Source of the DNA: Halorubrum rubrum
GTDB taxonomy: Archaea; Halobacteriota; Halobacteria; Halobacteriales; Haloferacaceae
Reading direction: 5' to 3'
DNA: 64,000 nucleotides
NCBI RefSeq assembly: GCF_024494685.1
Contig: NZ_JANHDM010000002.1
Coordinates: 1-64,000, forward strand
Positions within the stretch are counted from its first letter, which is position 1; each line of letters begins with the position of its first letter. Shown here one piece after another: positions 3,546 through 63,050 of the stretch. The notes beneath the pieces were generated by a model. That model was not told where the DNA came from and did no database searches. It saw only the letters and a program-made list of their open reading frames with translations. Made by a program: the position numbers and the translations under genes.

Positions 3546-4964
3546 ATGGACGATCGACGCGACGAAGCCAGGAGAGGGGACGGAGCCGATCCGTACGCCC
3601 CTGCGACGACGGCACTCGACCGCGGGGCGTTCGAAGCGGACCCGGCGGCGGTCGCCGCCCGACTCGACGCGGACGACCCGCTCTCGGGCCTCGCGGATCG
3701 CTTCTCGGTCCCCGGCGACGCGTTGTACATGGACGGCAACTCCCTCGGCCCCGCGAGCGACGCCGCGCTCGCGAGCCTCGACCGGGTCGTCGACGAGTGG
3801 CGCGACCTGCTGATCGGCGGGTGGACCGACGCGGACCCGCCGTGGTTCGAGGTCGGCGAGCGGATCGGCGCGGCGCTCGCGCCGCTCGTCGGGGCCGACC
3901 CGGCGGAGGTCGTCGTCGGCAACTCGATCACGGTGAACGTTCACACGCTCGTCGGAACGTTCCTCGACGAGTTGCTCGCCGGCAACGGCCCGGACCGGGC
4001 GGGGCACGCGGCCGCCGACGGGAACTGGAATCCCGACGTCGAGCCCGCGGTGCTCGTCAACGACCTCGATTTCCCGTCCGACCACTACGCGATCCGCGCA
4101 CAGCTCCGGCAGCGCGGGATCGACCCCGCCGAGAAGCTCCGGATCGTCGAGAGCCGCGACGGGCGGACGATCGACCCCCGCGACATCGAGGCCGCGCTCG
4201 GGGCGCACGACGACGTGGGTATCGTCTTCATGCCGACCGCGCTCTATCGGTCCGGACAGCTGTTCGACGTGGCGCGGATCGCCGAGGCGGCCCACGACGC
4301 GGGGGCGTACGCGGGGTTCGACGCGGCCCACTCGGTCGGGGCGGTCCCGCACGCGTTCGCGGACGCGGGCGTCGACTTCGCGGTGTGGTGTACGTACAAG
4401 TACCTCAACGCCGGCCCCGGCTCCATCGGCGCGCTGTTCGTCGCCGAGCGCCACCACGGGCTCACGCCGGCGCTGGCCGGGTGGTGGGGTCACGAGAAGG
4501 CGACGCAGTTCGAGATGAACCTGACCTACACGCCCGCCGACTCCGCGGGCGCGTGGCAGATCGGCACGCCGCCGCTGCTCGCGGCGGCCCCCCTGGAAGG
4601 TTCCGTCGAACTCCTCCGAGAGGCGGGGATCGACCGGATCCGCGCGAAGTCGCTCGCGCTCACCGACTTCCTGATCGCCCTCGTCGACGAGAGACTTCCC
4701 GAGGTCTCGGTCGGGACGCCCCGCGAGCGCGACGCCCGCGGCGGCCACGTCGCCCTCGAACATCCCGAGGCGGAGCGGCTGAGCAAGGCCCTGACGGACC
4801 GCGGCGCCGTGGTCGACTTCCGGCCGCCGAACGTGGTCAGAGTCTGTCCGGCCGCGCCGTACACGTCCTTCGCGGACGTGCTGGCGGTCGTCGACCGGAT
4901 CGAGGCGCTCCTCGAGAGCGGGGACCACCTGGCGTACGCGGTCGGCGAGGGCGGCGTGACGTAG
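3546..4964 (+). CDS. kynU: Kynureninase
   Basis: A PLP-dependent fold-type I hydrolase of 472 residues that cleaves kynurenine (or 3-hydroxykynurenine) to anthranilate (or 3-hydroxyanthranilate) and alanine in tryptophan degradation. Recognisable parts are LYMDGNSLGP near residue 60, the NSITVNVHTL region near residue 125, the cofactor-contacting GFDAAHSVGAVPH near residue 260, and CTYKYLNAGPGSIGALFV near residue 285, in which the Lys of TYKY is the expected PLP-linked residue. Length and motif order fit the family. The first roughly 30 residues are a hydrophilic extension, so the true start could be internal. No tryptophan 2,3-dioxygenase or kynurenine formamidase lies next to it, so the rest of the pathway must be elsewhere or absent. 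Confidence 0.9.
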   Translation: MDDRRDEARRGDGADPYAPATTALDRGAFEADPAAVAARLDADDPLSGLADRFSVPGDALYMDGNSLGPASDAALASLDRVVDEWRDLLIGGWTDADPPWFEVGERIGAALAPLVGADPAEVVVGNSITVNVHTLVGTFLDELLAGNGPDRAGHAAADGNWNPDVEPAVLVNDLDFPSDHYAIRAQLRQRGIDPAEKLRIVESRDGRTIDPRDIEAALGAHDDVGIVFMPTALYRSGQLFDVARIAEAAHDAGAYAGFDAAHSVGAVPHAFADAGVDFAVWCTYKYLNAGPGSIGALFVAERHHGLTPALAGWWGHEKATQFEMNLTYTPADSAGAWQIGTPPLLAAAPLEGSVELLREAGIDRIRAKSLALTDFLIALVDERLPEVSVGTPRERDARGGHVALEHPEAERLSKALTDRGAVVDFRPPNVVRVCPAAPYTSFADVLAVVDRIEALLESGDHLAYAVGEGGVT

Positions 4965-5427: not shown

Positions 5428-8334
5428 ATGGCGGAACCGTCGGGTATGGACGCCTTCACCCGCCTCGGGAGCGAGGTCCGCGGGGCGCTCTCCGAGCGGG
5501 GCTTCTCGACGCCCACGGAGCCGCAGCGGAAGGCGATCCCGCCGATCGCGGCCGGGAGGAACGCCCTCGTGCTCGCACCCACGGGCACCGGGAAGACCGA
5601 GACCGCGATGCTGCCCGTCCTCGACGCGATCCACCGCGCCCGCGACGCCCCCGGCGACCCCCCGCGTGAGGGGATCTCCGCGCTCTACATAACCCCGCTC
5701 CGCGCGCTCAACCGCGACATGATGGACCGGCTGGAGTGGTGGGGCGACCGGCTCGGGATCGAGGTCGCGGTGCGTCACGGCGACACCACCCGGTACGAGC
5801 GGTCGAAGCAGGCCGACGACCCGCCCGACGTGTTGATCACGACGCCCGAGACGCTCCAGGCGATCCTGACGGGATCGAAGATGCGGGTCGCCCTCGAGGA
5901 CGTCGAACACGTCGTGGTCGACGAGGTCCACGAGCTGGCGTCGGCGAAACGCGGCGCCCAGCTGACGGTCGGGCTCGAGCGGCTCCGGCGGGTCGCGGGG
6001 CCGTTCCAGCGGATCGGGCTGAGCGCGACGGTGGGGTCGCCGGAGGAGGTGGGGCGGTTCCTGGTCGGCTGCGGGCGGCGCGACCCGGACCGGGAGGGTG
6101 ACCGCGCGTTCGAGACGGTCGAGGTCGCGGCCGGGACCCGGACCGACGTGCGCGTGCTCGACCCCGAGATCACGGGGGCGGATTCGCGGCTGGCCGGCGA
6201 GCTCGCGACCGACGAGACGACCGCGAGTCACGTCCGCGCGATCCGCGAGACGGTCCGCGAGAACGACTCGACGCTGATCTTCGTCAACACGCGCCAGACC
6301 GCGGAGGCGCTCGGATCGCGGTTCAAGACGCTCGCCGAGGGCGACCCCGAGGACGAGACGGTCACGATCGAGGTCCACCACGGCTCGCTCTCGACGGAGG
6401 TCCGCGTCGACGTCGAGGACCGCTTCAAGGCCGGCGCGGTCGACGGGCTCGTCTGTACGTCCTCGATGGAGCTGGGCATCGACGTGGGGCGCGTCGACCA
6501 CGTGGTCCAGTACGGGAGCCCCCGCGAGGTCGCCCGGCTGCTCCAGCGGGTCGGGCGCGCGGGCCACCGCCGCGACCTGGTCTCGGAGGGGACCGTCGTG
6601 ACGCAGGGGGGCGACGACACGCTGGAGGCGATGGCGATCGCCCGGCGGGCCGGCGAGGGGCTCGTCGAGCCGGCGAGCATCCACCACGGCAGCCTCGACA
6701 CGGTGGCGAACCAGGTCGTCGGCGTCGTGATGGACGAGGGGGAGGTCCACGCCAGGACGGCCTACGAGACGATCACGAACGCGTACCCCTTCCGCGACCT
6801 CTCCGAGCCGACGTTCCAGGAGATCGTCCGCGAGCTGGACGGGAACCGCCTGCTGTGGCTCGACGAGGAGTCGGACACCCTCGAGAAGTCGGGGGGGACG
6901 TGGCAGTACTTCTACGCGAACCTCTCGATGATCCCCGACGAGTCCACCTACGAGGTGTACGACATGTCCTCCCGGCGGGGGATCGGCACCTTGGACGAGC
7001 GGTTCGTCGTCAACTTCGCCGGGCCGGGCGAGACGTTCGTCCAGCGCGGCGAGATGTGGCGGATCACGGAGGTCGACGAGGAGGAGGAGCGCGTCGAGGT
7101 CACGCCGATCGCCGACCCCGCCGGAGAGGTTCCCTCGTGGGTGGGTCAGGAGATCCCCGTCCCGAGGCCGGTCGCCGAGGAGGTCGGGCGGATCCGCGGG
7201 GAGGTCGCGAGCGCGCTCGAGGCGGGGTCGACGCCGGCGGCGGTCGCGGGCGACCTGGCCGACCGGTACCCGGCGGACGAGCGGACGGTCCGGGAGGCGA
7301 TCGGGACGATCGCGGACCACGTCGACGCCGGCCACCCCGTGCCGACGGACGAACGGGTCACCATCGAGGGGAGCGCGCGGACCGTCGCGGTGAACGCGAC
7401 GTTCGGCCACGAGGTCAACGAGACGCTCGCACGGCTGCTCGCCGCGCTCGTCGGCCAGCGCACGGGGTCGTCCGTCGGGATGGACGTCGACCCCTACCGC
7501 GTCGAGTTCGAGGTGCCGGGCGGGGCCGACTCCGGCACGTTCCGGGAGGTCCTCGAGACGACCGATCCCGATGGGTTGGCGGCGTACCTCGAGATCGCCG
7601 TGAAGAACTCGGACGCGCTGAAGTTCACGCTCGCGCAGGTCGCCGCGAAGTTCGGCGCGGTCAAGCGCTACCGGGAGGGTCGCGGGAAGTTCGGCGGCGA
7701 TCGACTCCTCGCGGCGCTGGAGGGGACGCCAGTCTACGACGAGGCGCTCCGGGAGGTGTTCCACGCCGACCTCGCGGTCGCGGAGACGGCCGACGTGCTC
7801 GAGGCGGTCCGGTCCGGCGGGATCGACCTCGCGACCGCTCGCGAGCGCACGCCCCTCGGCACGGCCGGCCGGTCCGCCGGAACGGAGTTCCTCGTGCCCG
7901 AGAACGCCGACGCCGACGTGATCGAGACGGTCCGCGAGCGCATCCGGGACGACCGGGTTCGCCTCTTCTGTCTCCACTGCCGGGACTGGGAGCGCACCAC
8001 GAAGGTCAGGCGGGTCGGAGAGCGGCCGGAGTGTCCGGAGTGCGGATCGACGCGCGTCGCGGCGCTGAACCCGTGGGACGAGGAGACCGTCGCCGCGGTC
8101 CGCGCCGCGGAGAAGGACGACGAGGAGGAGCGCCGCACGGAGCGGGCACACCGGGCGGCGAGTCTCGTCCAGTCACACGGGAAGCGCGCGGTGATCGCGA
8201 TGGCCGCTCGCGGCGTCGGCCCGCACAACGCCGCCAGGATCATCAACAGGCTGCGCGAGGACGAAGACGAGTTCTACCGCGACGTGCTGCGCCAGGAACG
8301 CGAGTACGCGCGAACGCAGTCGTTCTGGGACTGA
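5428..8334 (+). CDS. lhr: Lhr-family DEAD/DEAH superfamily 2 helicase
   Basis: A large ATP-dependent nucleic-acid helicase (968 residues) of the Lhr family, implicated in DNA repair and recombination. Visible motifs are the Walker A APTGTGKTE near residues 50-58, YITPLRALNRDM (motif Ia), the DEVH box in VVDEVHELAS near residue 165, SATVG (motif III), CTSSMELGIDVG and QRVGRAGHR (motifs V and VI, about residues 345-385). An Lhr-specific winged-helix/core region follows, and the C-terminus carries a zinc-ribbon-like CLHC...CPEC pair near residue 848 and a helix-rich tail. Length and zinc pair fit archaeal Lhr proteins. The start at 5428 has acttaatcgg upstream (5389-5398); an internal ATG six codons later is an alternative. 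It stands alone after repeat copy 1. Confidence 0.9.
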   Translation: MAEPSGMDAFTRLGSEVRGALSERGFSTPTEPQRKAIPPIAAGRNALVLAPTGTGKTETAMLPVLDAIHRARDAPGDPPREGISALYITPLRALNRDMMDRLEWWGDRLGIEVAVRHGDTTRYERSKQADDPPDVLITTPETLQAILTGSKMRVALEDVEHVVVDEVHELASAKRGAQLTVGLERLRRVAGPFQRIGLSATVGSPEEVGRFLVGCGRRDPDREGDRAFETVEVAAGTRTDVRVLDPEITGADSRLAGELATDETTASHVRAIRETVRENDSTLIFVNTRQTAEALGSRFKTLAEGDPEDETVTIEVHHGSLSTEVRVDVEDRFKAGAVDGLVCTSSMELGIDVGRVDHVVQYGSPREVARLLQRVGRAGHRRDLVSEGTVVTQGGDDTLEAMAIARRAGEGLVEPASIHHGSLDTVANQVVGVVMDEGEVHARTAYETITNAYPFRDLSEPTFQEIVRELDGNRLLWLDEESDTLEKSGGTWQYFYANLSMIPDESTYEVYDMSSRRGIGTLDERFVVNFAGPGETFVQRGEMWRITEVDEEEERVEVTPIADPAGEVPSWVGQEIPVPRPVAEEVGRIRGEVASALEAGSTPAAVAGDLADRYPADERTVREAIGTIADHVDAGHPVPTDERVTIEGSARTVAVNATFGHEVNETLARLLAALVGQRTGSSVGMDVDPYRVEFEVPGGADSGTFREVLETTDPDGLAAYLEIAVKNSDALKFTLAQVAAKFGAVKRYREGRGKFGGDRLLAALEGTPVYDEALREVFHADLAVAETADVLEAVRSGGIDLATARERTPLGTAGRSAGTEFLVPENADADVIETVRERIRDDRVRLFCLHCRDWERTTKVRRVGERPECPECGSTRVAALNPWDEETVAAVRAAEKDDEEERRTERAHRAASLVQSHGKRAVIAMAARGVGPHNAARIINRLREDEDEFYRDVLRQEREYARTQSFWD

Positions 8335-8605: not shown

Positions 8606-10348
8606 ATGGTTAGGTCAGACGCGGACATGAAACGGCGTGACTTCCTGAAAGCGACCGGTGCCGGCGGCACGGTCGGAATTACGGCCCTCGCCGGCTGTTC
8701 CGGTGGCGGCGGTGGCGGCGGCGACGACGGTTCGGGCGACGACGGCTCCGGTGACGACGGTTCGGGCGACGACGGCTCCGGTGACGACGGTTCGGGCGAC
8801 GACGGCTCCGAGAACGGCGGCGGGAGCAACCTCCCGACGTACACATACGTTAACAACGCACAGAGCTACAACCCGCCGCGACACGACGCGATCAACCTGA
8901 TCGCGAGCCAGTTCGACGACGAACTCGGCCTCGACATCGAGGTCGACGTGCTCGAGTGGGGGACCCTGTTCAGCCGGGTCTCCGAGGAGTACGACTACAG
9001 CTTCTCGACGTGGCACACGTTCTTCGTCTCGGAGCCGGTGACCGAGCTGAACAACCTGCTCAACTCCGGCAACACCGACCCCGGACAGGGGAACTACGCG
9101 GGCTACGTGAACGAGGACCTCGACGAGCTGATGTCGAGCTACCTGGCCGAGCCGGACGCCGACACGCGGATCGACCAGTGTCACGAGATCCAGCAGACCG
9201 TGATGGACGACGTGCCGATGATGCCCGTCACGCATATGCCACAGACGGCCATCTACAACAACAACCAGGTCTCCAACTGGGAGTCCGACCTCGCGAACGG
9301 GTTCAACTCCTACTGGACGATGATCAACCTGGAGATGGAGGGCGACGAGGACACCCTCAAGGGCTACTGGCCGGAGACGCTCTCGACGATGAACGTGCTC
9401 GGGCACAACGACGAGAGCAAGCACGTCTACCAGTTCAACATGCTGTACGACTTCCTGGTCCAGTACAACGGCGACGCCGAACCGGACCCGGAGGTCAGCC
9501 TCGCGACGGACTGGGAGCGCGTCGACGAGACCACGATGGAGTACACCATCCGGACGGACCACTCGTGGCACGACGGCGAGGACGTCACGGCCGAGGACGT
9601 CGCGTTCTCGTACAACTACATCGTCGATAACGAGGTGCCGCTGTACTCCACCCAGGCCGGCTACATCGAGGGTGCGGAGGTCGTCGACGACGAGACCGTT
9701 CGGATCAACATGTCCGAGCCGCTCGGGCCGTTCAACCTCTCGGTCGCCAACCTCATCCCGATAATCCCCGAACACAAGTGGGCCGACCGGGACAACCCGA
9801 GCGAGGCCAGCATCGAGGAGCCGGTCGGCAGCGGTCCGATGATGTTCGACTACTGGGAGCAGGGCAGCGAGTTCGGCATGACGAAGTTCGACGAGCACTT
9901 CGCGCCCGTCGACTTCGATCGCCGCTTCTGGCGGGTCATCCCCGAGGCGTCGACGGTGTGGGAGAACCTCATCGACGGCGACCTCAACTACGAGCCGTTC
10001 GGCCGGATCGACCGCCAGCTCAACGAGAACCAGGACAACGAGAACATCGGGACCCAGTTCAACCCCGCGGCGACGTTCTGGCACTTCACCCCGAACGAGC
10101 GTCAGGAGGGACTCGACGACCCGCAGATGCGGAAGGCGCTCGTCGAGGCCATCCCGCGGACGCCCATCGTCGACCAGATCCTGTTCGGCTTCCCGGAGCC
10201 CGGCTTCAACGTCGTCTCGGAGGCGTTCGGTCCGCTCCACACCGAGGACGTCACCGAGTACGAGGAGAGCATCGACGCGGCCCGCAGCCGGCTCGAGGAG
10301 GCCGGCTACTCCTGGAACGACGAGGGCGCGATCCAGGCACCCGAATAG
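8606..10348 (+). CDS. Peptide/nickel-type solute-binding lipoprotein with permuted domain order
   Basis: Extracytoplasmic binding protein of ABC family 5 (DppA/OppA type), 580 residues, feeding the permease encoded next. The N-terminus carries a twin-arginine signal (KRRDFLKATG, residues 9-18) and lipobox LAGC with Cys31 as the probable lipid anchor, then a Gly/Asp/Ser linker. Segment order is unusual: the part that normally closes the protein (VDVLEWGTLFSRV, then YAGYVNEDLDELMSSYL near residue 166) comes first, and the part that normally opens it (SWHDGEDVTAEDVAFSYNYI near residue 320) comes second, with the C-terminus ending at ARSRLEEAGY. This is the pattern of a circular permutation. The substrate is likely peptides or similar, but not provable. 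An ATG at 8627 directly before the Arg pair is an alternative start. Confidence 0.88.
   Translation: MVRSDADMKRRDFLKATGAGGTVGITALAGCSGGGGGGGDDGSGDDGSGDDGSGDDGSGDDGSGDDGSENGGGSNLPTYTYVNNAQSYNPPRHDAINLIASQFDDELGLDIEVDVLEWGTLFSRVSEEYDYSFSTWHTFFVSEPVTELNNLLNSGNTDPGQGNYAGYVNEDLDELMSSYLAEPDADTRIDQCHEIQQTVMDDVPMMPVTHMPQTAIYNNNQVSNWESDLANGFNSYWTMINLEMEGDEDTLKGYWPETLSTMNVLGHNDESKHVYQFNMLYDFLVQYNGDAEPDPEVSLATDWERVDETTMEYTIRTDHSWHDGEDVTAEDVAFSYNYIVDNEVPLYSTQAGYIEGAEVVDDETVRINMSEPLGPFNLSVANLIPIIPEHKWADRDNPSEASIEEPVGSGPMMFDYWEQGSEFGMTKFDEHFAPVDFDRRFWRVIPEASTVWENLIDGDLNYEPFGRIDRQLNENQDNENIGTQFNPAATFWHFTPNERQEGLDDPQMRKALVEAIPRTPIVDQILFGFPEPGFNVVSEAFGPLHTEDVTEYEESIDAARSRLEEAGYSWNDEGAIQAPE
8721..8810 (+). repeat. 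Three 30-base tandem repeats encoding a Gly/Asp/Ser linker
   Basis: Units 8721-8750, 8751-8780 and 8781-8810 are almost identical and encode (GDDGS)6 just after the lipidated cysteine of the binding protein. The near identity, including codon choice, points to recent expansion by slippage. The encoded acidic linker probably acts as a flexible spacer from the membrane. Confidence 0.85.
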
Positions 10349-10421: not shown

Positions 10422-11405
10422 ATGGGAAAAGCTAGCTTCGTTGTCAGGCGCACGCTCCAACTCGTCGCGACGTTGTGGGCGGTCGGAACGGTGCTGTTCG
10501 GGCTGTTCAGGCTCATGCCCGGCGATCCGACGTCGTACGTGGTCTCCTCGCAGATGACACAGGAGGCCCGCCAACGGCTCATCGAGAGCTACGGCCTCAA
10601 CGACCCGTTGTACGTCCAGTACATCCGGTTCCTCCAGAACCTGGTCCAGCTGAACTTCGGGCAGTCGTTCCACTCGAATCAACCCGTCACCGACATCATC
10701 GCGACGTACATGCCGAACACGCTCGTGTTGATGCTGTCGGCGTTCGTCGTCGCGTACGCCATCGGGATCACGCTCGGCGTGTTGTCCGGCTGGTACCGCG
10801 GCTCCCGGTTCGAGCGGAGCACGGTCATCACGGCGTTGACGGCCCGGAGCGTGCCGACCTTCTACGTCGGGCTCATCGTGCTCTGGATCTTCGGTGCCGA
10901 ACTCGGCCTCATCCCGATGAGCGGGATGACCAGTCTGGGGACCGGCGGTCAGAGCACGGGGTTCCTCGACATGGTCCTCACCGTGGACTTCCTCAAACAC
11001 CTCATGGCGCCGGCGGCGGTGCTGGCGTTCTACTACATGGGATACCCGCTCCTGATCATGCGCTCGAGCATGCTCGAGGTGCTCTCGGAGGACTTCATCG
11101 ACGTCTGCCGCGCGAAGGGGCTCAAGGAGCGGACGATCATGTTCAAACACGCCGCCCGGAACGCCCTGCTCCCGATCGTCACGGCGGCGGCGATCGCCCT
11201 CGGCTACGCCGTGGGCGGGAGCGTCCTCATCGAGACCGTGTTCGCGTGGCCCGGGATCGGTCGGGAGATGGTCCGCGCGGTCCTCCGGCGCGACTTCCCG
11301 GTCGCACAGGGCACGTTCATCGTGCTCGCGTCGACCATCATCTTCCTGAACTTCGTGGCCGACCTCGCGTACGGCTACCTCGACCCGCGGGTGACTTACG
11401 ACTAG
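10422..11405 (+). CDS. dppB: ABC transporter permease, DppB type
   Basis: Inner-membrane subunit of a peptide/nickel-type importer, 327 residues. The first helix region (LVATLWAVGTVLFGLFRLMPGDP) and the following TQEARQRLIESYGLNDP match the DppB/OppB N-terminal signature. About six hydrophobic segments follow, and the EAA-type coupling loop appears near residue 225 as DVCRAKGLKERTIMFKHAARN. This loop docks onto the ATPase subunits encoded downstream. The next gene begins four bases after the stop, so the two are co-transcribed. The gene symbol denotes family membership; the substrate is not shown by sequence. Confidence 0.9.
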   Translation: MGKASFVVRRTLQLVATLWAVGTVLFGLFRLMPGDPTSYVVSSQMTQEARQRLIESYGLNDPLYVQYIRFLQNLVQLNFGQSFHSNQPVTDIIATYMPNTLVLMLSAFVVAYAIGITLGVLSGWYRGSRFERSTVITALTARSVPTFYVGLIVLWIFGAELGLIPMSGMTSLGTGGQSTGFLDMVLTVDFLKHLMAPAAVLAFYYMGYPLLIMRSSMLEVLSEDFIDVCRAKGLKERTIMFKHAARNALLPIVTAAAIALGYAVGGSVLIETVFAWPGIGREMVRAVLRRDFPVAQGTFIVLASTIIFLNFVADLAYGYLDPRVTYD

Positions 11406-11409
11406 ACCA

Positions 11410-12390
11410 ATGGCCCAAGAAGAACAATCAAGTCGGTCGATATACACCGACCTCGACGACGGCGGCTCCGACGAGGAGATAGACAAGTGGCAGCGGACGT
11501 TCCGCCTCTGGCGGGAGACGCTCCGGGAACACTGGGGAATGCTGACCGACGAGCTGTCGGTCAAGCTCTCGATGCTCACCGTCGCGGGGTTCATGCTGAT
11601 CGCGATCTTCGCGCCGTTCATCGCGACCCACCAGCCGCTCCAGCGGCAGTACCAGGGCGAGGCGGGGATCATCATCGAGGACTGGGCCGAACCGTCGCTT
11701 CTCGGCGCGGACACCGAGTACCTCCTCGGGACGACCGCGGAGGGATTCGACATCTTCAGCCAGCTCATCTACGGGACGCGCGCCGCGCTGCTGGTCGGGC
11801 TCGTCGCCGCGATCTTCACCGCGGGGATCGGGACGCTCGTCGGCCTCGTCGCCGGCTACTACGGCGGGAAGGTCGACGACGCGCTGATGCGGATCGTCGA
11901 CTTCCTGTACGGGATGCCGCTTCTACCGACGGTCATCGTCCTGGTCGCGGTGTTGGGACCGGACCTCTGGAACATCATCCTCGCGCTGATCGTTCTCCAG
12001 TGGCGCTCGACCGCCCGCGTCATCCGCTCGCAGTCGCTGTCGCTGCGTGAACGGCCGTTCGTGAAGGCCGCGGAGGTCGCCGGGGCGGGCGACTGGCACA
12101 TCATCAGTCGACACCTCGCGCCGAACGTCCTTCCGATGACGTTCCTCTACGGCTCCTTCGGGATCGCATGGGCCATCCTCGCCGAGGCGGGGATCTCGTT
12201 CATCGGCCTCGGCGACCCCAACACGGTCTCGTGGGGAACGATGCTGCAGGCCTCCCGTGCGTACTCCGCGCTCTCGTTCGGCGCGTGGTGGTGGTTCGTG
12301 CCGCCGGGGATCTGTATCGGTCTGCTCGTCATCAGCGGTTTCCTCATCGGCCGCGGCTACGAAGAGATCACTAACCCCAAACTACAATGA
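11410..12390 (+). CDS. dppC: ABC transporter permease, DppC type
   Basis: Second membrane subunit of the importer, 326 residues. A hydrophilic N-terminus of about 55 residues precedes the first membrane helix (SMLTVAGFMLIAIFAPFIA), then LLGTTAEGFDIFSQLIYGTR, the DppC/OppC landmark that precedes the core helices. Five further hydrophobic segments and the coupling loop FVKAAEVAGAGDWHIISRHL (about residues 217-236) follow, and the C-terminus carries the family segment GDPNTVSWGTMLQ. Its stop overlaps the start of the ATPase gene by four bases, indicating translational coupling. Confidence 0.9.
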   Translation: MAQEEQSSRSIYTDLDDGGSDEEIDKWQRTFRLWRETLREHWGMLTDELSVKLSMLTVAGFMLIAIFAPFIATHQPLQRQYQGEAGIIIEDWAEPSLLGADTEYLLGTTAEGFDIFSQLIYGTRAALLVGLVAAIFTAGIGTLVGLVAGYYGGKVDDALMRIVDFLYGMPLLPTVIVLVAVLGPDLWNIILALIVLQWRSTARVIRSQSLSLRERPFVKAAEVAGAGDWHIISRHLAPNVLPMTFLYGSFGIAWAILAEAGISFIGLGDPNTVSWGTMLQASRAYSALSFGAWWWFVPPGICIGLLVISGFLIGRGYEEITNPKLQ

Positions 12391-13427
12391 GTCAACTGGA
12401 AGTCGAAGACCTCGAAGTCTACTACGAAACCGAAGAAGGGCCGGCACAGGCCGTCGACGGCGTCTCCTTCGAACTCGAAGAGGGCGAGAACCTCGGTATC
12501 GTCGGCGAGTCCGGCTGTGGGAAGACCACGCTCGCGAAGGCGATCATCGGGATCCTCCCCGACGCCGGCTACATCAACAACGGCAGCATCAACTTCAAGG
12601 GTGACGACCTGACGGAGATGTCCGGACCGGAGCGTCGCCGCCTCAAATGGGAGGAGATCTCCATGATCGCCCAGTCGGCGATGAACTCGCTGGATCCGGT
12701 GTACACCATCCGCGAGCAGATCGTGGAGGCCATCGAGACCCACCGGCCGGGGACCGGCCGCGTCGAGTCCGACGAGATCGTCACCGAGATGTTCGAACTC
12801 GTCGGGCTCGACCCCGAGCGCGCCGACGACTACCCGCACCAGTTCTCGGGCGGAATGCGCCAGCGCGCGATGATCGCGATGGCGCTCGCGCTCGAGCCGT
12901 CGCTGATGCTGGCCGACGAGCCGACCACGGCGCTCGACGTGATCATGCAGGACCAGATCCTCAAGCGGATGGGGTCGATCCAGGAGGAGATCAACTCCTC
13001 GATGCTCGTGATCACCCACGACGTGAGCGTCGTTGCCGAGACCTGCGACCGGGTCATCGTGATGTACGCGGGGAAGATCGCCGAGGAGGGTCCCGTCGAG
13101 GAGATCTTCAACCGGCCGTATCACCCGTACACGATCGGGTTGAAACGCGCGTTCCCGAACATCCGCAAGAGCAGCCAGGACCTGCTCTCCATCGCGGGAT
13201 ACCCGCCCGAACTCGTCGACCCGCCGCAGGGCTGCCGGTTCGCCGCGCGGTGCCCGATGGCGACGGACAAGTGTCGCGAGGAGGAGCCGGAGGCACACTA
13301 CGAGAACGGCCTCCGCTCGTACTGTCACTACGCCGACGAGATCGACACCGAGCTCCGACCGTACGCCGACGACTCGGACACGTGGAGTCAGACTGCCGCG
13401 GCCACCGACGGGGGTGTCGAGGAATGA
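12387..13427 (+). CDS. dppD: ABC transporter ATP-binding protein, DppD type
   Basis: Cytoplasmic ATPase subunit, 346 residues. Walker A is GESGCGKTT near residue 37, the signature is FSGGMRQR near residue 153, Walker B is LMLADEP near residue 173, and the switch histidine is in VITHD. The C-terminal oligopeptide-type domain has the cysteine cluster GCRFAARCP...C...C (about residues 281-315), reported to hold an iron-sulfur cluster in related archaeal transporters. It starts inside the last codons of the permease gene and ends overlapping the next ATPase by four bases. It pairs with the following gene as a heterodimer. Confidence 0.92.
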   Translation: MSQLEVEDLEVYYETEEGPAQAVDGVSFELEEGENLGIVGESGCGKTTLAKAIIGILPDAGYINNGSINFKGDDLTEMSGPERRRLKWEEISMIAQSAMNSLDPVYTIREQIVEAIETHRPGTGRVESDEIVTEMFELVGLDPERADDYPHQFSGGMRQRAMIAMALALEPSLMLADEPTTALDVIMQDQILKRMGSIQEEINSSMLVITHDVSVVAETCDRVIVMYAGKIAEEGPVEEIFNRPYHPYTIGLKRAFPNIRKSSQDLLSIAGYPPELVDPPQGCRFAARCPMATDKCREEEPEAHYENGLRSYCHYADEIDTELRPYADDSDTWSQTAAATDGGVEE

Positions 13428-14518
13428 GCGGGAAGGAGGCCCTCCTCGAGGTCGACGGCCTGAAGAAGCACTTCAAGGTCAATCAGGGCTGGATCGCCAG
13501 CCTGATGGAGTCGTTCGGCAGCGGGGAGCCGGACTACGTCCACGCGGTCGACGGCGTCAGCTTCGAACTCCGCGAGGGGGAGACGCTCGGACTCGCCGGC
13601 GAGTCCGGCTGCGGGAAGACGACGACCGGGATGTCGCTGGTGAAGCTCCACGAGCCGACCGCCGGCGACATCATCTACGACGACCAGCGGCTCTCGGAGG
13701 CGACCGACGCGGAGATCAAGAAGTTCCGGCAGAACGCCCAGATGATCTTCCAGGACCCCTTCGAGAGCCTGAACCCGCGGATGACGGTGTACGACACCGT
13801 CGCCGAGCCGCTGCGCATCCACGACATCCCCAACGAGACGGCGCGGGTCCAACGCGCCCTGGAGTTCGCGGAGCTGCTCCCGGCCGAGCACTACTTCGAC
13901 CAGTACCCGCACGAGCTGTCCGGCGGACAGCGACAGCGGGTCGCGATCGCGCGGGCGCTCGTGCTCGATCCCGACTTCATCGTCGCGGACGAGCCGGTGT
14001 CGATGCTCGACGTGAGCCTCCGTGCGGGGGTGCTCTCGCTTCTCGACCGCATGACGGACGAGTTCGGCCTCTCGGTCGTCTACATCAGTCACGACCTCTC
14101 GCTGCTCCGGCACATGTGTGACCGGCTGGCGATCATGTACATGGGCAAGATCGTCGAGAAGGGGCCGACGGACCAGATCATCGAGAACCCGCAACACCCG
14201 TACACGCAGGCGCTCATCAACGCCGTCCCGGTCCCCGATCCGGGCGTGGGTCGCGACCGCGTCGAGCTACAGGGCGAGGTCGGCGACGTCATCGACATCC
14301 CGACCGGCTGTCGGTTCAAGAACCGGTGTTCCGAGTACATCGGCGACGTCTGTGACCAGGTGGTGCCGCCGTTAGAGCAGAAGACGGAGTTCGAACAGGA
14401 CGTCGCCTGTCACCTCTACGAGAGCGCGGCGGGGTACGATCCCTACGAGGAGATGAGCGGGAGTCCGAGCGCCGCCGAGACGGGCGACGGGGCCGAGTCG
14501 ACGCCCGCCGACGACTAG
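13424..14518 (+). CDS. dppF: ABC transporter ATP-binding protein, DppF type
   Basis: Second ATPase of the importer, 364 residues from the ATG at 13424, which overlaps the dppD stop as ATGA. Walker A is GESGCGKTT, the signature LSGGQRQRV, Walker B FIVADEP. The C-terminal domain carries [12 protein letters not shown], then Cys at GDVCD and ACHLYE. Family-specific text [15 protein letters not shown]-like sequence appears as [16 protein letters not shown] in the Q-loop region. The gene closes the plus-strand operon and its stop overlaps the stop of the convergent TldD-like gene. A disordered Ser/Ala/Glu-rich tail follows residue 335. Confidence 0.92.
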
Positions 14519-15975: not shown

Positions 15976-16062
15976 GAACGTGTGATCTCCGCTCTCACAC
16001 ATGAAACCCTTGACTTCCGGGGACGGCGGTCGACAGTGCGGTGACTCGACACGCCGCGTACG

Positions 16063-56400: not shown

Positions 56401-57819
56401 CTACTCCGCCGACCCGGCCGGTTCCGACCCGTCCGCGAACGTCCCGGCCTCCTCGTCGAACTCCCCGTCGTACCGGAGACACGCGATCCCGTGGTCCGCG
56501 CCGACGTCGTACTCCGTCGGGTGACGTCGCTCGCAGGGGGAGACGAACGCGGCGTCGAGCAGTTCCGCGGCCTCCCCGATCCGGTCGTCGCGGAGCGCGT
56601 CGATCGCCTCGGCGACGGCAGCCTCGGCGTCGGGGTCCGAGAGCGGATCGGGGAGGCCGAACTCCTCGCGAACCAGCGCGTCGAACGTCTCTCGGGACGC
56701 CTCTGTCGGGCCGGTCGGACCGGCCGGATCGATCGCGTCGGCCGGATCGAGAGCGCCGCCGTCGACCGGCGACCCGTCGCCCTCCCTCGACGTCCTCGCG
56801 GCCGTCAGGGACGTCACGCCGTCGGCCTCCCTCGCCCGGAGTTTCAGGTCCGTCAGGGAACGCCAGGTCTCCCCGGAGAGGTCGTACTCGGCGCTCGGGA
56901 CGAGTCGCGGACATCGAGTGTGAAACCGACAGCCCGAGGGGGGATCGACCGGGGACGGGACCGTCCCGGTGAGGCGGATCCCGTCGCCCTCCCACAGCGG
57001 GTCGGGTTCGGGGATCGCGGAGAGCAGCGCCTCGGTGTACGGGTGGTACGGCGGTTCGAACACCGTCTCGGTCGGCCCGCGCTCGACGAACTCGCCGAGG
57101 TACATCACGGCCACCCGGTCCGAGACGTGCTCGATCACGCGCAGGTCGTGCGCGATGAACACGTACGCGAGCCCGAACTCCGCCTGGAGGTCGGAGAGCA
57201 GGTTGAGGATCTGCGCTTGAACGCTGGCGTCGAGCGCGGACACCGGCTCGTCACAGACGATCACCTCGGGATCGACCGCGAGCGCGCGGGCGATCCCGAG
57301 TCGCTGGCGCTGCCCGCCGGAGAACTCGTGCGGATAGCGGGCCGCGTGGTTCGGCTTCAACCCGACCGTCTCCAACAGCTCGCGGACCCGCTCGTCGCGT
57401 TCCGCGCCCGCCGCGAGCCCGTGGACGTCGAGCGGCTCGCCGACGATGCCGCCGGCGGTGAGGCGAGGGTTCAGACTCGAGAGGGGATCCTGAAAGACGT
57501 ACTGGAGGTCCTTCCGGCGGTCGCGCAGCTCGGCGCTCGACAGCGCAGTCAGGTCCTCCCCGCGGTGATACACCGACCCCGCCGTCGGCTCGACCAGTCC
57601 GAGCACGCTCCGGGCGAGCGTCGTCTTCCCGCAGCCGGACTCGCCGACGACGCCGAGCGTCTCGCCCGCCCGAAGATCGAAGTCCACGCCGTCGACCGCC
57701 CGCACCCGCCGCGACCGCCCGAGCAGCCGGTCGAGGAACCCCTCGGTCGAGTCGTAGTGCGTCTCCAACCCCTCGACGCGGAGGACCGGTTCGACGGCGT
57801 CGCCGTCATCGTCACTCAT
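56401..57819 (-). CDS. dppF: ABC transporter ATP-binding protein, DppF type, with a large C-terminal insertion
   Basis: A 472-residue ATPase, about 110 residues longer than the DppF homologue at 13424. Walker [10 protein letters not shown] (about residue 60), signature [11 protein letters not shown] and Walker B VIVCDEP are normal. The C-terminal domain keeps [11 protein letters not shown], but the second cysteine pair (SPCERRHP... GIACLRY) lies about 130 residues further on. The inserted part holds a helical segment, [20 protein letters not shown] and [14 protein letters not shown], joined by Gly/Pro/Asp-rich linkers. The four-Cys set is thus complete but split. It is the last gene of the minus-strand operon. 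The ATG at 57819 overlaps the preceding gene by eight bases; a GTG four codons earlier is possible. Confidence 0.9.
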
Positions 57820-58882
57820 CGGCGGGGTCACCCCCGGCGCGTTCGTCCCGCGGTTCCTCGACCTCCACGGAGTAGTCCAGCCCGCCCGAGAGCCCCTCCG
57901 TGTACTCGAGGCAGGCGGCAGCCCGGTCGTCGTCGAGCGTCGCCGCCTCGCCGGTCTCCGGATCGACGAGCGAGGGGTGCGTCCGGGTACACGCCTCCTC
58001 GGCGAAGGGACACCGCGGGTGGAACCGACAGCCGGAGGGCGGATCGACCGGATCCGGCGTCGTTCCCGGAATCGTCCGGAGGCGATCCCGGCCGTCGCCG
58101 ATCCGCGGGATCGCGCTCATGAGCCCCGCCGTGTACGGGTGTTTCGGGTCGTAGTACAGGTCCTCTATCGGGGCCGTCTCGACGGCCTCCCCCGCGTACA
58201 TCACCATCGCTCGGTCGCACGTCCCGGCGATCACCCCGAGGTCGTGGGTGATGAGCTGGACCGCGACGTCGAACTCGTCGGCCAGCTCGTCGAGCAGCTC
58301 CAGGATCCGCGCCTCGACGGTGACGTCGAGAGCGGTCGTCGGCTCGTCGGCGACGATCAGGTCCGGCTCACACGACAGCGCCATCGCGATGGTCGCGCGC
58401 TGGCACATTCCGCCGGAGAACTCGTGGGGGTACTCGGAGTACCGGGCCTCCGGATCGGCGATCCCGACGCGGTCGAGCAGCCGGATCGCTCGCGTTTTCG
58501 CCGCCGCCGGGTCGTATCCCATGTGGTGTTCGATCGTCTCGGCGATCTGCTCGCCGACGGCGTAGACGGGGTTCAACGCGGCGCGGGCGTCCTGAAAAAC
58601 CATGCCGATCTCGTCGCCGCGGACCGACCGGAGGGCGGACTCGTCCATCGACAGGAGGTCCTCGCCCTTGAACCGGACCTCGCCGCGTTCGATCCGGCCA
58701 GGTCGGTCGATCAGCCCGAGCACCGACCGCGCGGCCACGCTCTTTCCGGCCCCGCTCTCCCCGACGACGCCGAACGTCTCCGCGGCCTCGACCCGGTAGG
58801 AGAGGTCGTCGACGGCGGTCACGACGCCCTCATCGGTGTGAAACCGAACCGTCAGGTCCTCGACCTCCAGGAGGGCGGTCAC
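57812..58882 (-). CDS. dppD: ABC transporter ATP-binding protein, DppD type
   Basis: A 356-residue cytoplasmic ATPase that pairs with the following DppF-type subunit. Walker [10 protein letters not shown] near residue 38, signature FSGGMCQRA near residue 153, Walker B LIVADEP near residue 173. The C-terminal oligopeptide-type domain has [20 protein letters not shown] near residue 281 and a last Cys in AACLEYTEG, the same four-cysteine set as in the first operon. It starts four bases inside the permease stop and overlaps dppF by eight bases. Confidence 0.92.
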
Positions 58883-60096
58883 GGCTCGTCACCTCGGCTC
58901 TCGCGGTTCTCGCCGTCGTCCCGCAGATCCCCCCGATCCCCGCGTCCCCCACGGTCCACGCCGATCCGGCGCGCGTCGAGCGCGTCGTTGATCCCGTCGC
59001 CGATCACGTTCATCGCCAGCACGAAGACGAAGATCGCCGCGCCGGGGTACACCGTCGCCCACCACGGGATCTCCCCGCCGGGCCCCTGGATCAGCGTCTC
59101 GCGGGTCGCGTCGAGCATCGTCCCCCACTCGGCGGTGCTCGGGTCCATCCCGAGTCCGAGGAAGCCGAGCGCGGCGACGCCGATCACGACGTTGCCGACG
59201 TTGAGCGACGCCAACACGACGAGCGGCGACAGCGCGTTCGGCGCGACGTGTCTGCGGATGACGCCGCGGTCGCGCGCGCCGATCGCCCTCGCCGCCAGCA
59301 CGTAGTCGCGTTCCGCGATCGACAACACCTCCCCGCGAACGAGCCGGGCGTACCCGGCCCACCCGAAGAGGCTGAACGCGCACACTAGCTGCCAGTAGCC
59401 GCCACCGAGCGTGGCGACGACGACGAGCGCCAACACGAGGCCGGGGAACGCGAAGACCACGTCGACGATCCGCATCATGACCTCGTCGACCGTCCCGCCG
59501 TAGTACCCCGAGACCGCCCCGTAGACCAGCCCGAACGCCGCCGTCAGCCCGACGACCACGAACCCGATCGAGATGCTGTAGCGCCCGCCGACGAGGACCC
59601 GAGAGAACAGGTCGCGTCCCGCGCCGTCGACGCCCATCGGGAACCGCGCGGACGGCGGGTCGTACGGGCTCACGCTCGGGTCCACGGAGAGGTAGAGGAT
59701 CGTCGTCGGGTCGTAGGGCGCGAGCGCGAACGGCTGGACGACCACGCCGAAGACCTCGACGGGCCGCGCGAGAAGCGAGACGAGCGCCATCGCGACGACG
59801 ACCGAGAGGGCGACCATCGCCGAGCGGTCCCGTCGGAACCGTCGGAGCCCGCGTCGCCACCGGCCGGCCGCCGCGCCGTTCGTCGCCCTCTCGGCGCTTT
59901 CCCCGTCGTCGCCCTCGCCGGTCGCTCCCCGACCCTCGCCGGTCGCGCCGTCCGTCTCGCTCCACTCGGAGAGCGGATCGCGGTCGCGGACGCGGTCCGC
60001 GTCGAACCCGACGACCCGGATCCGTCCCCGCTCGGCGGTTCGACCGCGCGCTCGACTCCCGTCCGAGCCGGTCCCGCGCTCCCCGTTCTCAGTCAT
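58879..60096 (-). CDS. dppC: ABC transporter permease, DppC type, with a long polar N-terminus
   Basis: A 405-residue membrane subunit. The first about 90 residues are charged and Gly/Asp/Arg-rich and contain no membrane helix, making it about 80 residues longer than the DppC in the first operon (326). After RRFRRDRSAMVALSVVVAMA the normal core begins: PMGVDGAGRDLFSRVLVGGR, six hydrophobic segments, the coupling loop YVLAARAIGARDRGVIRRHV near residue 275, and the family end segment PSTAEWGTMLDATRE. The N-terminal extension is likely cytoplasmic and may contact the ATPases. Its start overlaps the DppB-type gene stop by eight bases. Confidence 0.9.
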   Translation of the reverse strand: MTENGERGTGSDGSRARGRTAERGRIRVVGFDADRVRDRDPLSEWSETDGATGEGRGATGEGDDGESAERATNGAAAGRWRRGLRRFRRDRSAMVALSVVVAMALVSLLARPVEVFGVVVQPFALAPYDPTTILYLSVDPSVSPYDPPSARFPMGVDGAGRDLFSRVLVGGRYSISIGFVVVGLTAAFGLVYGAVSGYYGGTVDEVMMRIVDVVFAFPGLVLALVVVATLGGGYWQLVCAFSLFGWAGYARLVRGEVLSIAERDYVLAARAIGARDRGVIRRHVAPNALSPLVVLASLNVGNVVIGVAALGFLGLGMDPSTAEWGTMLDATRETLIQGPGGEIPWWATVYPGAAIFVFVLAMNVIGDGINDALDARRIGVDRGGRGDRGDLRDDGENRESRGDEP

Positions 60097-61045
60097 ACCT
60101 GATCCTCGGGTCGAGCACTGCGTACAGGACGTCCGCGAGGAAGTTCGCGAGGACGACGGCGACGGCGGTCACGACCGTGATCGCCATCACGACGTTGACC
60201 TCCCGTCGGTTGATCGCCCGGACGAGCTCCGAGCCGAGTCCGGGCCAGTTGAACACGCTCTCGACGACGACCGAGCCGGCGACGATGCCGGCCGTCAGCG
60301 TGGCCGCGAGCGTGACCACTGAGACGAGCGAGTTCCGCAGAACGTGTTTGAACACGACCGTGCGCTCGGGCAACCCCCTCGCGCGCGCGGCGGTGACGTA
60401 CTCCGCGTTCAGCTCCTCGACCATCGACGTCCGCATCACGCGCATGAGGCTCGCGGCCGCCGCGGTCCCGATCGTCACCCCCGGTAACAGGAGATACCGG
60501 AGCGTCTCCGGGTGATACAGCGGCAGCCGCGAGGGGGGCAACACCGGGAACAGTCCGAGGTACAGAGAGAAGACGAGGATCAACAGCAGGCCGAGCCAGA
60601 AGTTCGGGAGCGAGACTCCCGACAGCGCCAGCACGCGGCTCGCGACGTCGCCGAGCTTCCCCTTGTTCACCGCCGCGTAGATCCCCGTCGGGATCGCGAT
60701 CGCGACCGCGAAGACCCAGCCGAAGAGCCCCAAGGCGATCGTCTCTGGAAGCCGTCGCCACACGAGGCCCGAGACCGCCCGTCCCGTCCGGATCTCTCGA
60801 CCGAAGTCGCCGACGAGCACGTTCGAGAGCCACTCGAGGTACCGTCTCCACACCGGTCCCGAGACGCCCCACCGCTCGCGGAGTCGCGCCTCCTCGGCGG
60901 CGCTCACGTCCGGGTTCAACGCGACCACCTGCGAGACCGGATCGCCGGGCGTCAGGTGGAACAGCCCGAAGGTGACCACCGACACGCCGAACAGGACCGG
61001 GATCACGGCGAGCGCACGCCGGAGGACGAACCGTCTGAGACTCAT
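60089..61045 (-). CDS. dppB: ABC transporter permease, DppB type
   Basis: A 318-residue membrane protein with about six hydrophobic segments. It opens with SLRRFVLRRALAVIPVLFGV and TFGLFHLTPGDP, the DppB signature, followed by AEEARLRERWGVSGPVWRRY. The cytoplasmic coupling loop is YVTAARARGLPERTVVFKHV near residue 215, and the end reads FLADVLYAVLDPRIRYD. The ATG at 61045 is 20 bases after the binding-protein stop; the frame is open 24 codons upstream inside the binding-protein gene, but the ATG gives the family start. It is second in the minus-strand operon. Confidence 0.91.
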   Translation of the reverse strand: MSLRRFVLRRALAVIPVLFGVSVVTFGLFHLTPGDPVSQVVALNPDVSAAEEARLRERWGVSGPVWRRYLEWLSNVLVGDFGREIRTGRAVSGLVWRRLPETIALGLFGWVFAVAIAIPTGIYAAVNKGKLGDVASRVLALSGVSLPNFWLGLLLILVFSLYLGLFPVLPPSRLPLYHPETLRYLLLPGVTIGTAAAASLMRVMRTSMVEELNAEYVTAARARGLPERTVVFKHVLRNSLVSVVTLAATLTAGIVAGSVVVESVFNWPGLGSELVRAINRREVNVVMAITVVTAVAVVLANFLADVLYAVLDPRIRYD

Positions 61046-61064
61046 CGTCGAGCGGACTCCGCGG

Positions 61065-63050
61065 TCACGGCGACTCGCCGTACTCGGCGGCCATCTCCTC
61101 GAGCAACTCCTCCGCACGCTCGACGTCGTACTCGTTCAGCGGCTTGACCGTCGCCTCGAGCGCGTCGTAGTCGGCCGTCCCCGCCCCCCGCGCGATCCGC
61201 GGGATGGGCGTCCAGGCGGGTTCCGCCCAGCCGTTCAACACGTTGTCGACGATCCGCTGACGGGGAACGAGGTGGTTGACCGCCTCCCGAAGCCGCGGAT
61301 CGTCCCACGGCTCGACGTTCACCGGATACTGGAGGTAGTCGTATCCGCCGGCCTCGACGGCGTGGACGACGAAGTCGTCGGCGTCGTCGAAGTCCTCGAG
61401 CGTCCCGCTCGCGACGTCGTAGGTGAGGTCGACCTCGCCGTTCCGGAGCGCGCCCGCCCGCGTCGCGTCGTCGGGAACGACCTCCACCTCGACGGCGTCG
61501 ATCGCGGGGCCGTCCGGGAACGCGTCGGGGCCGTCGAACCACGCGAACGCCTCCGCGACCCCGCGGGATTCGACCCAGTAGTCGTCGAACCTCGAGACCT
61601 CGAGGTACTCCTCGTCGACGAACTCGCCGAACTCGTACGGGCCGGTTCCGATCGGCGTGACCCCCTCGCGCGGGTCGATCCCGCCCTTCTCGACGTCGGC
61701 GATCTGGTCCGCGCTGAGGACGTATATCCCCGGCAGTTCGCGCTCCGCCTCCGCGTCGGGGACCTGCGCGTACACGTCGACGACGTGGTCGTCGACCGCG
61801 ACGGCGGCGAGCACGGAGTCGAACGTCTGGGGGGCGGTCGCCGAGTTCTCGTAGTACTCGTAGCTCGCGACGACGTCCTCGGCGGTCAGCTCGCTCCCGT
61901 CGTGGAACTCGACTCCCTCGTGGAGCTCGTAGCGGAACCACATCCCGTACGTCCCGTCCGCGGCCGCCTCGCGAGCGTCCTCGGGCAGCAGGACGCGGAC
62001 CTCGTCGTCGGCCGCGGGGTCGTCCTCGGGGTGTCTGGCGATCACCTGCTCGTCGGCGTCGACCGCGCCCTCCGCCGTGGTCCCCACGACGCGCATGTAC
62101 TCCTCGTAGGCCGTGCGGTCGACGTCCCGAACGTCGCGAAGCTCGTAGCGCTCGGCGAGCCACGGATGGACGTTTCCCTCGGCGTCGTTGACGACGAGCC
62201 CCTCGAAGAGGAGGTTCTGAACCATCGTCGACGTCGTGTCGCTGCTGTGGGGGGGATCGAACGAGCCGGGATTCGTCGAGATCGCACCCGTCAGCGTTCC
62301 GCCCGTCACGAGGTCCGCGAGGTCCGCGTCTCCCGCCCGCCGCTCCCGGTCGATCCAGGCGACCTGCTCGTCCTGTGGCGCGTACAGGGCGTAACCGAAC
62401 AGCCCCTCCTGGAACGGCCACGTCGCGAACCCGTGGACGGCCGCGTCGGTCACGGCGGTCGCCACGCTGAAGTGGGTGAAGGAGGTGTATCGCTCCTCGG
62501 CGAGCGTCCGCCAGATCTCGTCGTACGTCTCCGCGCGGAGGTCCGCGTCCTCGGCGACCTCGATCCCGTACCGGGCGGAGTCGAGCAGCTCGTCCAGCTC
62601 CGGATCGGAGATGCCCGTCAGGTTACAGCACGCGCCGACGTTCGCCGAGTTGTGGATCACGTTACAGAAGCTGTGGGGGTTGAACGTGCCGGAGAGGCCG
62701 ATGGCGGGGAGGTAGCCGTTCTCCCGATACGTCGGGTTGATGACTCGGTCGAGGTACGCGTTCCACTCGTAGGTCTCCACCTCCGTCTCGAAGTAGCCGG
62801 TCTGTTGGAGCGACTCCGCGATGAGTTCGACCATCCGAATTCGTTCGTCCTTCCCGCCGGTCTCGAGACGAACCGAGAGGGGAAACAGCCCGTCGTCGTC
62901 CGAATCGGAGCCCGCGGACCCCGAGGGCTCGGTGGCCCCCTGACCACCGCATCCGGCGAACCCGGCGGTCCCCGCGGCCCCGATCGTCGCGAGGAGGTTC
63001 CGCCGGTCGAGCCGCCGACCCCCGTCGGCAGCTTCGTGTCGATTTGCCAT
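61065..63050 (-). CDS. Peptide/nickel-type solute-binding lipoprotein with permuted domain order
   Basis: A 661-residue extracytoplasmic binding protein, first gene of the minus-strand operon. Its N-terminus has a twin-arginine-like signal (LDRRNLLATIGAAGTAG) and lipobox FAGC with probable lipidated Cys near residue 34, then an acidic linker. As in the first operon, the order is inverted relative to typical family-5 proteins: SDPELDELLDSARYG-type sequence (about residue 145), normally near the C-terminus, precedes GTLTGAISTNPGSFDPP (about residue 240), the usual mature start, and VEFHDGSELTAEDVVASYEY (about residue 380). The protein ends at DVERAEELLEEM. Two Cys-Cys pairs occur around residue 138. 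Substrate is unknown; peptides are the family default. Confidence 0.88.
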   Translation of the reverse strand: MANRHEAADGGRRLDRRNLLATIGAAGTAGFAGCGGQGATEPSGSAGSDSDDDGLFPLSVRLETGGKDERIRMVELIAESLQQTGYFETEVETYEWNAYLDRVINPTYRENGYLPAIGLSGTFNPHSFCNVIHNSANVGACCNLTGISDPELDELLDSARYGIEVAEDADLRAETYDEIWRTLAEERYTSFTHFSVATAVTDAAVHGFATWPFQEGLFGYALYAPQDEQVAWIDRERRAGDADLADLVTGGTLTGAISTNPGSFDPPHSSDTTSTMVQNLLFEGLVVNDAEGNVHPWLAERYELRDVRDVDRTAYEEYMRVVGTTAEGAVDADEQVIARHPEDDPAADDEVRVLLPEDAREAAADGTYGMWFRYELHEGVEFHDGSELTAEDVVASYEYYENSATAPQTFDSVLAAVAVDDHVVDVYAQVPDAEAERELPGIYVLSADQIADVEKGGIDPREGVTPIGTGPYEFGEFVDEEYLEVSRFDDYWVESRGVAEAFAWFDGPDAFPDGPAIDAVEVEVVPDDATRAGALRNGEVDLTYDVASGTLEDFDDADDFVVHAVEAGGYDYLQYPVNVEPWDDPRLREAVNHLVPRQRIVDNVLNGWAEPAWTPIPRIARGAGTADYDALEATVKPLNEYDVERAEELLEEMAAEYGESP

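Follow-up and report, generated by a model that had tools for sequence, protein, structure and literature searches.

The P0001 locus and its dpp operon

The window analyzed here, that is, the whole stretch of 64,000 nt from Halorubrum rubrum, contains an ORF (8606-10348, +) for a protein of 580 aa, P0001, in an operon of the DppB/C/D/F type (Table 1). The operon is preceded by a gene for a large Lhr-type helicase (5428-8334), itself downstream of a kynureninase gene (3546-4964, +), and directly past it, on the opposite strand, lies a gene for a PmbA/TldD-type metallopeptidase (14515-16002, -), which could process imported peptides. The TATA-like box TTTATATA is possibly a haloarchaeal promoter of a near-leaderless transcript, although this is only an inference. 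The N-terminus of P0001 carries an export signal with RRDFLK and the lipobox LAGC (Cys31); the Pfam TAT_signal model scored 20.6 bits, slightly below its cut-off of 22.7. A second family-5 binding protein, L002, is encoded near the other end of the window, where its gene comes first in an operon that also holds dppB, dppC, dppD and dppF (whole transporter 56401-63050, -). RefSeq labels proteins of the kind described below only as 'ABC transporter substrate-binding protein'.

Table 1. Coordinates of features of the two transporter loci in the window.
Feature	Position (nt)	Strand	Basis
TATA-like box TTTATATA, ~28-35 bp upstream of the start codon	8571..8578	+	Read in sequence
P0001, coding part	8606..10345	+	ORF
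Tat-type lipoprotein signal, residues 1-31 (MKRRDFLK ... LAGC31)	8606..8698	+	Sequence
Gly/Asp/Ser low-complexity linker, residues 32-74, tether of the new N-terminus	8699..8827	+	Sequence; pLDDT mostly <50
C-terminal third of canonical chains, here N-terminal, residues ~75-240	8828..9325	+	Sequence matches, domain mapping, modelling
Fusion linker from canonical C-terminus to canonical N-terminus, residues ~241-252	9326..9361	+	Median gap; pLDDT ~91-96
Canonical N-terminal two thirds, residues 253-569, with motif WHDGEDVTAEDV	9362..10312	+	Sequence and fold matches
Short post-helix tail, residues 570-580	10313..10345	+	Sequence comparison
DppB-type permease	10422..11405	+	Single clade of relatives next to permuted binding proteins
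DppC-type permease	11410..12390	+	Operon annotation
DppD-type ATPase	12387..13427	+	Operon annotation
DppF-type ATPase	13424..14518	+	Operon annotation
Second transporter, permeases and ATPases	56401..61117	-	Operon annotation
DppF of second transporter	56401..57831	-	Operon annotation
DppD of second transporter	57812..58882	-	Operon annotation
DppC of second transporter	58879..60096	-	Operon annotation
DppB of second transporter	60089..61117	-	Operon annotation
Second permuted family-5 binding protein, L002 (661 aa)	61065..63050	-	Order test, tree, operon comparison

Segment order and predicted fold of P0001

P0001 scored 187.6 bits with the SBP_bac_5 profile (PF00496), whose cut-off is 32.4. 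The match falls into two stretches, the better of which places residues 297-574 on profile positions 4-284. In a phmmer comparison with PDB sequences, residues 277-548 aligned with 49-333 of Bacillus subtilis DppE (E 2.7e-14) and residues 88-219 with 374-500 of the same chain (E 7e-6); likewise, residues 276-570 and 84-206 aligned with 48-346 and 365-484, respectively, of AppA (1xoc). A profile made from residues 75-250 of the family alone found the C-terminal region of solved family-5 chains, such as 356-497 of DppA (1dpp, 507 aa; E 6.6e-20) and 384-524 of 5f1q (E 7e-21). Residues 75-240 of P0001 hence match the last third of solved family-5 chains (DppA 356-497 of 507) and residues 253-569 the first two thirds. 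Since the C-part stands before the N-part, P0001 does not have the DppA/OppA chain order and was classed as a permuted variant. This confirms P0001 as a family-5 (SBP_bac_5, DppA/OppA-type) binding protein of circularly permuted order.

The initial annotation had suggested this permutation from a few motifs, and both the inverted order of the matches and the domain mapping given below bear it out. GYVNEDLDELM begins at residue 166, ahead of WHDGEDVTAEDVAFS at ca. 321, and the protein does end at a usually internal helix, with ARSRLEEAGY finishing at residue 568, 12 residues from the C-terminus. By alignment, the new termini fall, as had been proposed, in a single loop of the C-lobe, directly past the LLxEAGY helix and inside domain III, and the old termini are fused through a short linker, the gap between the two parts having a median of 13 aa in 124 permuted proteins. 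The tail (residues 570-580) keeps a remnant of the canonical loop, W.DDG.L..P, that is retained in the main permuted clade. The lipoprotein anchor and its linker were likewise correctly assigned to the new N-terminus, where a Tat/lipobox signal and a Gly/Asp linker are present. Conversely, the further conclusion that secretion and assembly of the fold have to follow this order is unsupported: the signal MKRRDFLK...LAGC is of the Tat-lipoprotein type and Tat substrates normally fold before export, so a secretion order does not follow.

An AlphaFold2 model of the whole of P0001, made with 50 aligned permuted relatives, reached a mean pLDDT of 87.9 and a pTM of 0.83, with most of the folded part above 90. 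Foldseek matched this model to family-5 proteins in the PDB over ca. 350 of 500 residues with a TM-score (target) of at most 0.57, as expected because a sequential aligner cannot align one of the permuted pieces. The N-terminal piece modelled alone was poorer (pLDDT 81.8, pTM 0.57) and again retrieved family-5 proteins (TMq up to 0.68). P0001 is thus predicted, by modelling only, to adopt the two-lobe family-5 fold. Using OppA domain limits that we take from general knowledge, residues 257-569 of P0001 correspond to 21-354 of mature OppA and residues 98-211 to 377-485. Residues 75-211 would then be C-lobe (domain III) and 212-240 the return to domain I, and residues 253-569 would comprise domains I and II followed, from residue 490, by the start of domain III. 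The prediction supports a domain III that, continuous in canonical proteins, is built in P0001 from both ends of the chain (75-211 and 490-569), with domains I and II and the tail that returns to domain I in one continuous stretch (residues 212-489).

Distribution of the permuted order

The permuted order prevails among the family-5 proteins of the genome (five of six), rather than being a curiosity of one protein, and it is recurrent. A two-part order test on the proteins fetched classed 127 as permuted and 28 as canonical; the latter are those that similarity searches returned, and the split is not a census. The two orders are separated by a junction model, A4, which in four test genomes matched permuted proteins in one piece (ca. 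4-249) and canonical proteins separately over 125-249 and 5-103, with a best E of 2.5e-30; a permuted junction was called at E up to 1e-40. With this threshold, the junction was found in 53 of 393 genomes sampled from the phylum of the window, among them 52 of the ca. 80 Halobacteria in that sample, as well as in 34/299 Bacillota, 2/201 Chloroflexota and 1/398 genomes from the phylum of Halomonas. Other named carriers are Martelella, Nitratireductor, Stappia, Dethiosulfatibacter, Trueperaceae, Atribacteria and Desulfobacteraceae. P0001 is one of a large group of rearranged archaeal and bacterial proteins that apparently have not been described. Four permuted genes had no transporter genes found nearby (G000:C18:223922-225787, L006; L128, L147 and L154), some of them on short contigs.

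A DppB-type permease gene lies nearby on the same strand in 49 of 53 named permuted loci. In a DppB tree, the 49 permeases found beside permuted proteins formed one clade as against 27 found beside canonical ones (SH-aLRT 99), and a clade of 48 rows was recovered in a later tree (SH-aLRT 97). Most likely, therefore, the main permuted clade, P0001 included, has a permease lineage of its own, with which it was inherited.

Putative function and tethering

P0001 is best explained as the substrate-binding subunit, anchored by a lipid, of an ABC importer of the DppBCDF type, with a permuted version of the two-lobe family-5 fold. We infer that it may work as an ordinary Venus-flytrap protein that binds its ligand between the lobes, although neither function nor ligand has been tested, and that it may dock on DppB/DppC with its tether on the C-lobe and not on the N-lobe, for which there are no docking data. 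The positions aligned to R383 and D436 of DppA are Q and F in P0001, in a loose part of the alignment; these residues are apparently not conserved, and the substrate may therefore be something other than a dipeptide. A dipeptide specificity inferred from the DppA ligand residues thus finds no support in P0001, within the limits of that alignment.

The permutation necessarily shifts the anchor to the other lobe, and could have been an adaptation to tethering if moving it from the N-lobe to the C-lobe favoured docking or closure. A similar idea has been put forward for TpMglB-2 (PMC4990184), and 98 of 124 permuted proteins contain a lipobox. Nevertheless, permuted proteins from Halomonas, alphaproteobacteria, Trueperaceae and others lack one, the linkers are of similar length in canonical lipobox-bearing relatives (medians of 37 and 34 aa), and the permuted archaeal protein L184 is apparently anchored at its C-terminus. 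Given the many permuted proteins of bacteria without a lipobox and the similar length of canonical linkers, we consider tethering an unlikely cause of the permutation. The rearranged gene may have arisen by duplication and fusion, followed by loss of the outer parts, an origin that is inferred; no duplicated intermediate gene was present among the 127 proteins checked.

Recurrence of the permutation

L002 represents a permuted lineage separate from that of P0001 and has close relatives of canonical order. In other members of the family, the binding proteins of orthologous operons are permuted in L249, L250 and L251 and canonical in L246, L247 and L248. L246, of canonical order, shares 73% identity with permuted L249 in each half; the two have nearly identical signal peptides and DppB proteins 86% identical, and are sisters with a support of 100/99; sisters of opposite order imply at least two topology changes within this small family. 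Residues 80-481 of L246 correspond to 250-653 of L002, and 487-668 to 56-236, which locates the cut within a few residues. The shared linker of the permuted members ends in D.DL.DL..GGTL, whereas canonical members share GEI.EGGTL. Two permutations would account for this, as would a single one combined with a reversal or with recombination.

All class 1 proteins share a single breakpoint loop, including several outliers that are closer to canonical proteins (L184, the L175/L181 group, L185 and L002). L184 (L217:6733-8496, -), with an apparent PGF-type membrane anchor, has colinear relatives ca. 35% identical in the same class, and its locus contains E. coli-like dppB/C genes. Class 2, with seven proteins from Bacillota (L171-L174 and L177-L179), has the order N2-C-N1, with the cut after NPNYW; it falls within or beside the main permuted clade in the trees, consistent with already permuted proteins having been permuted again. 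Locus L225 has two class 2 genes side by side.

All permuted family-5 proteins could in principle descend from one ancient permutation, if the scattered lineages were long-branch artefacts or had exchanged their permeases. In agreement with this, besides the breakpoint loop common to class 1, a first tree of 60 rows did not reject a single permuted clade (p 0.45), and outliers added singly against the main clade gave p values of 0.125 and 0.097, which are not individually decisive. However, in a binding-protein tree enlarged by canonical and outlier proteins, forcing all permuted proteins together cost 87 log units (AU p 0.022), and in the permease tree it cost 83 units (p 0.0015), so that both genes reject a single origin. 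Furthermore, the nearest relatives of the outliers are canonical proteins, their permeases fall among canonical DppB types, and the tail at the class 1 cut varies by lineage, with 2 or 9-11 residues. The seven orthologous operons oppose a single origin strongly, since orthologues of either order, 73% identical and in the same operon, need at least two topology changes. The deep trees were obtained with a quick search method and include long branches. We judge a single origin improbable. The tests thus indicate a recurrent permutation, with an exact number of origins that the single-outlier tests do not fix, and its best explanation is that a break directly past the LLxEAGY helix is tolerated, making this loop a hot spot that was permuted more than once.

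Finally, joining of two genes by a frameshift or misassembly, which had been named as a refutation, or a chance likeness of motifs, can safely be dismissed: there was no evidence in favour, both parts of the protein match with strong E-values, and full-length orthologues 62-89% identical keep the identical order across very many independent assemblies; in Haloprofundus, Haladaptatus and Natrialba magadii they lie on complete plasmids. We hold it as very probable, taken as a whole, that P0001 is a binding subunit of permuted order, with function and origin as inferred above, from a family permuted repeatedly at one hot spot, and that its main clade was co-inherited with the permease. A broader proposal, for which we see even chances, is that chain order is labile in family 5, with one loop permuted many times, a second breakpoint added on top, swaps of permuted and canonical proteins in orthologous operons and, possibly, reversal to canonical order.

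Comparison with known systems

SBP_bac_5 proteins (DppA, OppA, NikA, AppA; cluster C) are homologous to P0001 in both pieces and resemble it in operon partners, signal and lipobox, and predicted two-lobe fold. P0001 differs from them in its permuted order: the new termini lie in the C-lobe, the old ones are fused and the anchor is on the other lobe. Escherichia coli DppABCDF has the same five-gene make-up as the first dpp operon of the window; DppA sits there on DppB and DppC, with a scoop of DppB between its lobes, and its R383 and D436 contact the dipeptide termini (PMC12136057). DppA is unpermuted, unlike P0001, where these dipeptide-binding residues have no evident counterpart.

We found no description of a permuted family-5 protein in the open-access literature, subscription papers being outside the scope of the search. 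There was no permuted chain among the matches listed to solved structures, and the matches shown for profile A2 had the canonical N-part early. Profile tools assume chain order, and so cover only part of a permuted protein per stretch. The permutation is recurrent at one site and was caught between orthologues 73% identical that serve nearly the same permease; this makes the role of chain order in folding, export, tethering and docking directly testable, as well as the origin of the permutation, and builders of biosensors have at hand a natural permuted scaffold.

As a precedent, TpMglB-2 (Tp0684) from Treponema pallidum comes closest, being a natural circular permutation of an ABC substrate-binding protein described as 'Type Ic / Cluster Bc' (PMC4990184). 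It is like P0001 in being a lipoprotein and in sharing its permutation with a wider set of relatives (PMC4990184), but its fold is of the sugar-binding type I/cluster B kind, its breakpoint lies in the N-lobe, and it is not a family-level homologue of family 5. P0001 does not have that fold (type I, with permuted N-lobe strands), its listed matches being family-5 proteins. Natural permutation of a substrate-binding protein has a well-described case in another fold class, and is widespread here in one of the largest families for nutrient uptake.
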